Shown here one piece after another: positions 33,493 through 36,700 of a stretch of DNA of 64,000 nt. The stretch is from Betaproteobacteria bacterium (lineage in GTDB: Bacteria; Pseudomonadota; Gammaproteobacteria; Burkholderiales; UBA3065), in contig JAIXXL010000047.1 of the NCBI GenBank assembly GCA_027490755.1, forward strand, positions 62,001-126,000, in the 5' to 3' direction. The notes beneath the pieces are model-generated. The model saw only the letters and a list, made by a program, of their open reading frames with translations. It was not told the DNA's origin and searched no databases. The stretch's first letter is position 1. The number at the start of each line of letters is the position of its first letter. Position numbers and translations under genes: made by a program.

Positions 33493-34773
33493 TTAGCGCC
33501 CTGACCCGAGCAGGGCGTCGACCCACGCGACCTGCCGCGGCAGACATACGGTCTGCAGGTCGTAGTGGGACACCGCGAACTCGCGCGCAGCGGTACCCAG
33601 CCGCTGCCGCTGTTGTTCATCCGCACATAGCTCCGCAACAGTCGATGCCAGTGCAGCGGGGTCGAAAAAGTCGACCAGGCGTCCGGTGACGTTCTCATGT
33701 ATCGCCTCGCGCAGCGGCGCCGTATCGCTGGCGACGATGGCGCAGCCCGCGCTCATGGCCTCCAGCAGTGACCAGCTCAGGACGAACGGGTACGTCAGGT
33801 AGACGTGCACCGTGCTCGTCTGCAGCAAACGGATGAAGCCGGGGTAGGGCAATTGCCCGACGAAGTGCACGCGCGCCATGTCGGCGGGTGTCAATCGGCC
33901 GCGCACCTCATCAACGAAGATGTCCTTCCACTTGCCCTGCTTGGGCCGCGCGCCGTAGCTCACGTCGTCGCCACCGACGATGACCACTTGCGCCTTCGGG
34001 CGTGCCTGCAGCAACGCTGGCAGCGCCCTCATGAAGGTGTGATAGCCGCGGTAGGGCTCAAGGTTGCGGTTGACGAAGGTGATCACCTCGTCAGCGCGGC
34101 TCAGCGCAACTTGGCGAGCCGGCGCCTTGCCTCCGGGCGGGGCGATCCCGTGCGCTGGCAACTCGAGCGTGGCGGCCGGCTGCGGCGCCACCGCCAGCGT
34201 GTCGATACCGTCGTGGACCACGCTTATCCTTGAGCGGAAAGGCTCGGGGAAGGTGCTGGCCTGCCACTCTGTGGGCGAGATGCCGGAATCGGCCTGGGCA
34301 AAGTGCAGCAGGTTGTTGAGGTTCTTCAGCCGAAGACGGCAGACGTCGCCCGGGTCCTGGCTGGGGAATTCCGGGTCGAAGCCGGTATCGGCCCCGCTGG
34401 GCTGGTAATAGAACTCGCAGTAGATGCCCAGCCGGGTCTCGGGCCAGACCTCCTTGAGAAATAGCGTCTCGCCCCAGCCGTGATGGGCGATCACGGCGTC
34501 GGGGACATAGCCCTGCTCACGCAACTGAAGCGCCTTGCGAAAGAAGGCCTCGCCGCGGATCACCTTGGTCTCGAAGTCGGACACCCACGGGTGCACCCCC
34601 TGGGTGCTGCCGCGCTGGATGGGGTAAGGCACCAGTTGCACGCCGTTCCATTCAGGCGGCGGCGACTTCTGCAGGGTGGTGGCGGTGACGCGGTGGCCAC
34701 CCCGCACGAGCGCGGGCGCAAGATGTTTGAACTGCCCAGGGAAGTTCTGGTGGACGAGCAGGATCTTGGCCAT
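33493..34773 (-). CDS. Glycosyltransferase family 4 protein
   Basis: The product is 426 aa with a GT-B fold. The N-terminal domain starts MAKILLVHQNFPGQFKHLAPAL. The C-terminal donor domain includes EVITFVNRNLEPYRGYHTFMRALPALLQARPKAQVVIVGGDD, VHFVGQLPYPGFIRLLQTSTVHVYLTYPFVLSWSLLEAMSAGCAIVAS (with the conserved E of the E-x7-E region), and APLREAIHENVTGRLVDFFD. It resembles GT4 enzymes for cell-surface polysaccharide. No polysaccharide cluster surrounds it, so the acceptor is unknown. Confidence 0.9.
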   Translation of the reverse strand: MAKILLVHQNFPGQFKHLAPALVRGGHRVTATTLQKSPPPEWNGVQLVPYPIQRGSTQGVHPWVSDFETKVIRGEAFFRKALQLREQGYVPDAVIAHHGWGETLFLKEVWPETRLGIYCEFYYQPSGADTGFDPEFPSQDPGDVCRLRLKNLNNLLHFAQADSGISPTEWQASTFPEPFRSRISVVHDGIDTLAVAPQPAATLELPAHGIAPPGGKAPARQVALSRADEVITFVNRNLEPYRGYHTFMRALPALLQARPKAQVVIVGGDDVSYGARPKQGKWKDIFVDEVRGRLTPADMARVHFVGQLPYPGFIRLLQTSTVHVYLTYPFVLSWSLLEAMSAGCAIVASDTAPLREAIHENVTGRLVDFFDPAALASTVAELCADEQQRQRLGTAAREFAVSHYDLQTVCLPRQVAWVDALLGSGR

Positions 34774-34932
34774 GACCCGATGATTCTAGCGGCCCGCAGC
34801 GGCCGGTGGCTGAGAGGCGGCCGCCCTTTAGGGACCATCAAAGGCCCCAGACGAATATTTCGTGGCAAAGGCTCACCCAGTGAGCCCCTCAGATATTAAA
34901 AAGCTCAGGCGTGTAACCCTTGGAGACACCGT

Positions 34933-35268
34933 ATGCGTTTTCTCGCCCTAGCCATTCTGTTACTGCTTCCGCTGGCTGCAATTGCCGACCCCCATGGTCG
35001 CCCCCCACTGCTCAAGCCGGTGGAGAACCCCTTCGACCGCGACACCTACCGTCAGGGTACGAACCCGTTTGACCGCGAGACCTACCGTCAGACCACCAAC
35101 CCCTTTGACCGGGAAACCTACAGGCAGAACCACAATCCGTTCGACCGCGAGACCTACCGCCAGAACACCAACCCGTTCGACCGCGAGACTTACATTCAGG
35201 ACACCAACCCGTTCGACCGCGAGACCTATCGTCAGGGCCCGTTCAGATACCCGGGCCAGGACAAATAA
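34933..35268 (+). CDS. Exported protein of six 12-residue NPFDRETYRQ repeats
   Basis: The product is 111 aa. A signal peptide (MRFLALAILLLLPLAAIADP) is followed by a short linker and six tandem units of the form NPFDRETYRQxT, then GPFRYPGQDK. TTGGAGAC precedes the ATG. The repeats vary at third codon positions while the protein stays constant, which suggests selection on the amino-acid sequence. Each unit carries Asp, Arg, Glu, Tyr and Arg, so it is highly charged and probably extended. I know no family for it. A hairpin (34870-34886) lies in its leader. Confidence 0.82.
   Translation: MRFLALAILLLLPLAAIADPHGRPPLLKPVENPFDRDTYRQGTNPFDRETYRQTTNPFDRETYRQNHNPFDRETYRQNTNPFDRETYIQDTNPFDRETYRQGPFRYPGQDK
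35026..35241 (+). repeat. Six tandem 36-bp units within the repeat-protein gene
   Basis: Units start at 35026, 35062, 35098, 35134, 35170 and 35206. All are exactly 36 bp and in frame. They differ mainly by synonymous changes (for example CCGTTC, CCCTTT and CCGTTT for Pro-Phe), plus changes at the last two codons of each unit. Confidence 0.95.
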
Positions 35269-35278
35269 GCGGGGACAC

Positions 35279-35306
35279 TGGACAAAACGAGTGCCAGATG
35301 TAGAAT
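35279..35306 (+). promoter_or_regulatory. Sigma-70-like promoter for a short structured transcript
   Basis: TGGACA (35279-35284) and TAGAAT (35301-35306) are separated by 16 bp. A start near 35313 would place the GCGCC/GGCGC stem at the very 5' end of the RNA and the terminator about 90 nt downstream. Confidence 0.55.
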
Positions 35307-35312
35307 CTTAGT

Positions 35313-35404
35313 TGCGCCGATTTGACACTTGCGGGCGCTTTACAAGTTCAGCTAAACGGTCGCCATTCGGGCCCGCCAGCTGACGCTTGCGGGCTTTTTG
35401 TTTT
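35313..35404 (+). ncRNA. Candidate structured RNA or leader (about 90 nt) ending in a terminator
   Basis: The transcript predicted from the promoter at 35279 contains GCGCC (35314-35318) pairing with GGCGC (35334-35338). Downstream lie CAGCTAAACGGTCGCC and a terminator stem (35371-35394) with a T run. The first stem's 3' arm can also pair with later GCC-rich segments, so alternative folds are possible. The style recalls leaders found in integrative elements, for example the radC RNA motif, but I could not verify a match. It may be an attenuator for the gene at 35511 or a free small RNA. Confidence 0.45.
35371..35404 (+). terminator. Rho-independent terminator of the candidate RNA
   Basis: GCCCGC (35371-35376) pairs with GCGGGC (35389-35394) and is followed by TTTTTGTTTT. 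It sits 106 bp before the next start codon, so it would attenuate transcription into that gene. Confidence 0.75.
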
Positions 35405-35510
35405 GGGAAACAGTGGCAAAGCAGCACGGGATGGTCCACCTCACGGGCCGGGGGATTTCACCGAATTGCGGCCCCGGCATCTCGCCAAACTCGCTAAAGA
35501 GGAGACTCAC

Positions 35511-36164
35511 ATGACGTCTGACATCAAACGCGGGGCGGACTTCCGTCCGAGCACCTACTTCTGGGCGCAGGACCTCAAGCTCAAGCTGCCCTCGGACATC
35601 TCCGGGGCCGAGCGCCGGCGCCTGTACAAGGCCGCGCTCAAGGCCGGCGACACGGATTCGCTGTTTCTGGAGGACCCCGACTTCTCTAGCGATCGGCTGG
35701 AGCGCGATCTGCTGCGGGCATGGGGCGGCTTCCACCCCAGCCACCTGGGCGGCGAGTACCTGCCCAAGCGGCGCAGCGAGGAGGTGTAGATCGCGCGCAT
35801 CGTCATCGACTCGACCACGCGCGACGTGACGAGCGTCTACGCGCGGCGCGGCCAGAACCGCATCTACTACCGCGCGGTGGATGAGTACGGGGGCGACACG
35901 CTGGCGGAGAAGCGGGCCCGTAGCAGCAGGCAGCCGCTGACACTCAGAGAGTTGGTGGACTTCTTCCTCGGCGCGTGGGACCTGTTCGGCTGCCTCGACG
36001 CCAACTTCGCGTGGGAGGGCTACCCGGTGCGGGACATCCACCGCTTCCTGCTGACGCTGGAGTCGGACTTCTACCCCGACTTTGAGGAAGAGGTGCGCGA
36101 CCGCGTCTACGACTGGCTGGCGACCAAGCCGGTCAGGGAGACGGAGGAGGAAGAGGAGGATTGA
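35511..36164 (+). pseudogene. Hypothetical accessory-element gene split by an in-frame amber codon
   Basis: ATG at 35511 follows AAAGAGGAG. The first 92 codons (MTSDIKRGADFRPSTYFWAQ to KRRSEEV) end at TAG 35787-35789. The same frame then stays open for 124 more codons (IARIVIDSTTRDV, SVYARRGQNRIYYRAVDEY, LTLRELVDFFLGAWDLFGCLDANFAWEGYPVRDIHRF, to a Glu-rich end). Coding character right after the stop, before any start codon, shows a single gene broken by one substitution, probably GAG to TAG. A GTG at 35826 could restart translation. I recall similar proteins in mobile elements, but the function is unknown. Confidence 0.7.
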
Positions 36165-36245
36165 TCCGCTGGGTGCGGTGGTCAGATCTCTGGTCGCCGC
36201 GCGCGCTACATCGGCGGCTCACGTGGTGAGCCCGCCGAGTCTTAG

Positions 36246-36392
36246 ACTCTCTGCACGTACAACTGCGACAACCCACCTTATAACTACCAGAGCAATCCCT
36301 ACAAAACGAACTCGAGCAACAGCGTGTACGACAACAATGGCAAACGCATCGGCCACCAACCGGCCAAGCGTCGCCAAGGAGGCAAAGCATGA
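36246..36392 (+). pseudogene. Remnant of an Asn/Tyr-rich coding sequence
   Basis: Directly after a TAG at 36243-36245 the frame reads TLCTYNCDNPPYNYQSNPYK, then TNSSNSVYDNNGKRIGHQ and a basic tail, ending TGA at 36390-36392. That stop overlaps the next ATG (ATGA), as in a coupled operon. No start codon precedes the coding-like part, so the 5' portion seems lost or out of frame. Asn/Tyr-rich NxPYN-type sequences of this kind occur in plasmid and phage proteins. Confidence 0.5.
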
Positions 36393-36700
36393 AGGCAGGC
36401 AACTGCAAGGTGGGCGATCTGGCGATCTCGGTCAACACCGACCTGCCAGAGAATGCCGGGGTCATCGTGGAAGTGCTGGCGGTGAAGGTGGACGACCCGG
36501 ATTGGAGCCAGTCTTGCCACCCCCTGTGCCTGGTAAGGGCGGTCGGCAGCCGGCCGCTGCACCTCAACCGCCACGACGGCCGCCGCTGGAATCGCGAGAT
36601 CGTGCGCGAAGCCGTAGTGCCGGACAACCGCCTGCGGCCGATCACGCCTCCAGAGAAGGACATCGAAGTGCTGCGGGACCTCGAGATCTCAGCCCACTAG
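36389..36700 (+). CDS. Hypothetical protein of the accessory patch
   Basis: The product is 103 aa: MKAGNCKVGDLAISVNTDLPENAGVIVEVLAVKVDD, then CHPLCLVRAVGSRPLHLNRHDGRRW and a charged C-terminus. The opening resembles small SH3-like barrel proteins found in phages and conjugative elements. AAGGAGG (36375-36381) is a strong ribosome binding site. There is no signal peptide or membrane helix. Its function is unknown. Confidence 0.7.
   Translation: MKAGNCKVGDLAISVNTDLPENAGVIVEVLAVKVDDPDWSQSCHPLCLVRAVGSRPLHLNRHDGRRWNREIVREAVVPDNRLRPITPPEKDIEVLRDLEISAH

Follow-up and report, generated by a model that had tools for sequence, protein, structure and literature searches.

The NPF-repeat gene at positions 34,933 to 35,268 of the stretch analysed (the window, 64,000 nucleotides of contig JAIXXL010000047.1) was found to lie behind a conserved palindromic operator and is, on balance, probably one of the accessory genes switched by a stress regulon under a transcription factor of the HTH-WYL-WCX type. 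Its product is predicted to be small, Sec-exported and unfolded.

The NPF-repeat gene and its product

The gene comprises the following features.

34933..35268, + strand: NPF-repeat protein gene, 111 aa (ATG at 34933, stop codon 35266-35268)
34922..34925, + strand: Shine-Dalgarno-like GGAG, 7 nt 5' of the ATG
34933..34986, + strand: signal-peptide-like segment MRFLALAILLLLPLAAIA, likely cleaved between AIA and D (read from the sequence)
35026..35241, + strand: six 12-residue units of the form NPFDR[ED]TY[RI]Q-xx (Tandem Repeats Finder and unit comparison)

The open reading frame is thus present as described in the first-pass annotation, with its start codon, GGAG and 111-aa product. The export proposed there is also probable, as the first 18 residues resemble, on inspection, a Sec signal peptide with a hydrophobic leader, and the one relative found (locus L003, below) has a leader ending ALA before D. 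The protein is therefore likely to be periplasmic or secreted. The mature form was computed to have 93 residues, a pI of 6.1 and a gravy value of -1.97, making it very hydrophilic.

At 35026-35235 Tandem Repeats Finder placed an array with a 36-bp period and 5.8 copies, whose score of 259 was the strongest in the window (the runner-up scored 76). The units had been called exact, which is incorrect: the core NPFDRETYRQ occurs in four of the six, the order being NPFDRDTYRQ, NPFDRETYRQ three times, NPFDRETYIQ and NPFDRETYRQ, with Asp replacing Glu in unit 1 and Ile replacing Arg in unit 5, and the two-residue linkers are all distinct (GT, TT, NH, NT, DT, and GP). The synonymous divergence between units that had been remarked upon is real (mean pN 0.053 vs. 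pS 0.538).

A peptide-pattern scan of 84,980 species genomes identified one relative, with 78% identity, on a 3.2-kb contig of MAG WB9_2_209 (L003). It shares the signal peptide, the six units and the tail QGPFRYP..K with the window protein; the case of no homologue anywhere, envisaged in the first-pass annotation, did not arise. Each unit of the window array is most like the unit in the same position of L003, and only 2 of the 720 possible orderings reach the observed sum, which indicates that the six-unit array predates the split of the two genomes. Together with a pN/pS of ~0.1 for the units, this comparison supports the earlier suggestion of an old array held by purifying selection. The remaining four genomes of the genus lack the gene, and an order-wide profile run against 399 genomes returned, besides the window itself, chance hits only; two of these, L009 and L010, were rejected, being a chitinase linker translated out of frame and an unrelated repeat. 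No homologue was found on plasmids or viral contigs, and the only match from the phage search, to Corynebacterium phage P1201 at 34% identity, was taken as low-complexity.

No named protein similar to the NPF protein was found, and the description of it as unrecognised holds: the top-scoring Pfam family, PF16601 (Rabenosyn-5 NPF motif; E 0.0034), reached 18.3 bits against a curated cut-off of 27.6, and was discarded with a DUF5409 match that also scored under its cut-off. AlphaFold2, run on the window and L003 sequences, predicted no fold (pLDDT 51), and the mature protein is probably disordered.

A matrix, adhesion or surface-binding function had been proposed from the export signal and from tandem units rich in Tyr and charged residues. 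Nothing in the sequence, the neighbourhood or the predicted structure supports such a role, as the protein has no cell-wall or outer-membrane anchor and no predicted fold, no related adhesin or secretion gene was recognised adjoining it, and its regulatory context points instead to the regulon of a WYL regulator; we regard this function as very improbable. Still further from what we would expect is a host-directed mimic, in which the multivalent NPFD motifs, resembling ligands of eukaryotic EH domains, would target a protist host. The weak Rabenosyn-5 match (with E 8e-4 for the relative) speaks for it, but both matches lie under the curated cut-off and could come from the letters NPF alone, a Sec leader delivers only to the periplasm, and there is no sign of any host.

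The operator palindrome and its promoter geometry

The region upstream of the NPF gene, and that of a second site in the window, contain the following.

34870..34886, no strand: palindromic operator GGCTCACCCAGTGAGCC, of the pattern GGCTCAC-N3-GTGAGCC, ending 46 bp before the NPF start codon
34897..34902, + strand: TAAAAA, a poor match to a -10 hexamer at the conserved spacing of 10 bp from the operator, facing the NPF gene
34854..34859, - strand: AATATT at exactly 10 bp from the operator, facing the glycosyltransferase gene
33493..34773, - strand: divergent glycosyltransferase gene (Glyco_trans_4_3, E 1e-63), 96 bp from the operator
36216..36232, no strand: second operator GGCTCACGTGGTGAGCC, preceding a decayed gene; TAGACT follows at 10 bp on the + strand

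The exact pattern occurs three times in the 2.06-Mb genome (at 34870, at 36216 and ahead of a gene for an exported NSPxNY-repeat protein on contig 41) vs. no copies of a reversed control, and in 34 of the 399 genomes of the order vs. three for the reversed pattern. The L003 relative has an operator as well, GGCTCACCAGGTGAGCC (L003:1242-1258), located 70 bp ahead of its NPF start in different flanking DNA. A description of this operator was not found in the literature searched. By inspection, no CTGT, and hence no LexA-type CTGT-N8-ACAG box, is present within 34780-34932.

Spacing was counted over 44 distinct operator sites, each read in its two orientations. Measured from the palindrome, the hexamer NA[GT]A[ACT]T begins at 10 bp in 14 cases and at 11 bp in three, compared with at most one case at each of the other distances from 0 to 38 bp. 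As the -10 box starts at 10 bp far more often than elsewhere, the palindrome covers the -35 region; assuming the usual 17-bp spacer, its centre falls on the -35 box. The palindrome is therefore a promoter element lying over -35. Among 15 further loci the hexamer stood at 10 bp in only four sites, three of which are IS-element copies, and four hexamers stood at 5 bp, likely as four copies of one repeated element. At the window operator, GATATT (34892-34897, + strand) sits just 5 bp away.

Two other readings of the palindrome bear on the role of the NPF gene. It might serve the divergent glycosyltransferase, leaving the NPF gene as a constitutive exported protein and a neighbour by chance. The better -10 box, AATATT, does face the glycosyltransferase, with only TAAAAA on the NPF side, but in L003 the operator and an AATACT at exactly 10 bp are directed towards the NPF gene, and that locus lacks the glycosyltransferase; we consider this reading unlikely. 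The palindrome might instead be a mobile or structural DNA repeat, such as a terminator, a recombination site or an IS end, as might be suggested by the up to 19 copies in one genome, by the several copies at contig ends and by an IS1595 transposase gene behind one of them. The constant distance to the -10 box argues against this, as do the unrelated flanks, the restriction to three exact copies in this genome and the position of the palindrome before WYL genes in many genera, and a mobile or structural repeat appears very improbable. An operator that acts on the NPF gene is the reading followed below.

The WYL regulator and the genes behind the operators

A one-mismatch copy of the operator was found 41 bp ahead of a gene for an HTH-WYL-WCX protein in this genome (L016:491-1459, minus strand). 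Its product has WYL (3.9e-22) and WCX (1.2e-17) domains, with an HTH_11 match (9e-5) just short of the cut-off, and it matches the CRISPR-associated WYL model PDLC01457 (E 1.6e-43); the closest solved structures by sequence are PafBC (E 5.7e-26) and DriD. No cas gene was recognised around the WYL gene of this genome. Orthologues (E <= 1e-60) are present in 138 of the 399 genomes of the order, including 29 of the 34 that carry the operator (Fisher p 2.6e-10, an overstated value as related genomes were counted as independent). The operator, allowing up to three mismatches within 200 bp, lies upstream of 22 of 30 WYL orthologues vs. 0.73 expected. Exceptions are five operator genomes without a WYL hit and the eight WYL genes without an upstream site. 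Variovorax carries an orthologue with 48% identity.

The recognition helix, SxATxKRD, is nearly invariant among the 30 orthologues. At the arginine positions of PafBC all 30 have Ala/Ser and Ala/Gly/Ser/Thr, giving F[AS]xD[AGST] instead of FRxDR, so that the pair of the PafBC ssDNA site is absent throughout. The signal may for this reason differ from the ssDNA of PafBC, and the regulator appears to sense something through other residues; it is accordingly not classed as an orthologue of DriD or PafBC, only as working alike. LexA is encoded in this genome, so the regulator was rejected as a LexA replacement and its regulon would run beside SOS.

The genes behind operators in this genome, as defined by pattern searches, are rmuC, a SprT-like gene, an M41-peptidase gene fragment, an NSPxNY gene and the WYL gene itself. 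An M41 peptidase gene also follows the operator in two other genomes (G003 and G399). Elsewhere it precedes recA (twice), sbcD, rmuC, a Bro-N/DinD-like gene, a gene for an Hrq1-like helicase, cas3 and cas8e (in other genera) and an IS1595 transposase gene (L059); restriction-modification genes were found near the WYL genes of genus g31. Since the operator precedes DNA-repair, CRISPR, and transposon genes, production of the NPF protein is probably a response to threats to the genome. Some other sites with no plausible target behind them may be due to chance.

Two genomes (G148 and G385; L042 and L043) have in common a gene whose product begins MGEIVNP..., with an operator ~45 bp upstream and the WYL gene at most 6 kb away. 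The operator and -10 promoter are carried both by the IS1595-family gene mentioned above and by repeated elements at contig ends of G357 and G200 (L052, L056, L123-L125), G357 having as many as 19 operator copies. Transposition may thus answer to the WYL regulator.

A further set of exported repeat proteins is associated with the operator. These unnamed NSPxNY proteins (L004, L098, L100-L108) are like the NPF protein in having a signal peptide, short tandem units and the same operator, but their units have a period of 7 residues and a DNxGxRIGY part is present at the C terminus; the two could not be aligned, and no sequence homology was found between them. NSPxNY genes with an operator are present in five of seven WYL-bearing genomes vs. 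none of five without WYL. Those of genus g31 are 0.3-2.3 kb away from the WYL gene, and two of them adjoin genes for type I or type II DNA methyltransferases, in one case together with a methyl-directed nuclease. The second operator of the window is followed by these two sequences.

36246..36392, + strand: remnant of an exported NSPxNY-repeat protein that has lost its start codon and signal peptide (matches the L004 protein, E 4.5e-7)
36389..36700, + strand: small "GDLA" ORF, with relatives near NSPxNY and WYL genes in g31

On contig 41 of this genome, three operator copies were found in an island at 138-143 kb (G000:C41; L031), flanked by HtrA/BLUF genes on one side and a GGDEF-EAL gene on the other, which contains an NSPxNY gene, a MoxR ATPase, a SprT-like protein, and several small antitoxin-like and toxin-antitoxin-like genes. 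The island region also contains a copy (C41:138717-138919; L062:1491-1693) of a leader which in the window occupies 35304-35507, the two being 91% identical. Each resembles a SAM-II and SAM-V riboswitch in tandem, with a terminator hairpin between, an arrangement described from Ca. Pelagibacter ubique (PMC11508383). The scores (23.4 and 21.5 bits in the window, 16.8 and 31.3 in the other copy) are all under the Rfam gathering scores, with one match per copy at E about 0.002. The leader precedes an uncharacterised gene and a MoxR-type ATPase, and no methionine gene was recognised. In the window the ORF behind it, 35511-36164, has an in-frame TAG at 35787-35789 and would be a pseudogene, a sequence error or a case of readthrough. 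A single operon of the NPF gene and this leader is not favoured, because a sigma70-like promoter, TGGACA-16-TAGAAT, seen by eye near 35280, separates the two.

Proposed regulation and comparison with known systems

In the proposed scheme the WYL protein would sense a threat to the genome, in the form of DNA damage or invading DNA such as phage, and would then bind GGCTCAC-N3-GTGAGCC over the -35 region. Once bound, it would help RNA polymerase to start at the -10 box 10 bp downstream, acting as an activator. Repair and defence genes would be turned on in this way, plus small exported repeat proteins, NPF here and NSPxNY elsewhere. Induction of so small an exported protein under genome stress would suggest that it acts at the envelope, for example by delaying division or impeding the entry of phage, and an extracytoplasmic role of this sort (envelope, division or phage entry) is offered as a guess with a low chance of being correct. 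More speculative again, and doubtful, is the wider idea that the NPF and NSPxNY proteins form a standing extracytoplasmic arm of a WYL genome-defence regulon and work at the envelope, for instance against phage entry or by holding division, as repair and CRISPR are switched on in the cytoplasm.

If the scheme is right, one DNA word predicts a regulon, additional to that of LexA, in many genera of the order (probably Burkholderiales), and recA, sbcD, rmuC, CRISPR-Cas, IS elements and exported repeat proteins would be tied to a single WYL regulator. The operator would also give a direct route to testing what a whole group of exported orphan proteins does.

The closest parallel to the proposed mode of action is DriD of Caulobacter, likewise an HTH-WYL-WCX regulator, with a palindrome over -35 at a fixed distance from -10; its dimer brackets the -35 element and activates on binding ssDNA (PMC12340889). 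DriD also has a site before its own gene, repair genes as targets and a small division-inhibitor gene, didA, among them. However, its site is ATACGAC-N7-GTCGTAT, and the arginines of its ssDNA site are missing in the regulator described here. The analogy is limited further by the window promoter itself, where the NPF side has only the weak TAAAAA. PafBC of mycobacteria shares the WYL-WCX core, but is a heterodimer and needs an arginine pair of the R201/R204 type for ssDNA binding (PMC11804915), which the present regulator lacks. BrxR/CapW and the CRISPR-associated regulators are also of the WYL type, and the present regulator may share with them defence genes among or beside its predicted targets. 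BrxR, however, represses locally, within its own island, whereas dispersed promoters with the geometry of activation are predicted here.
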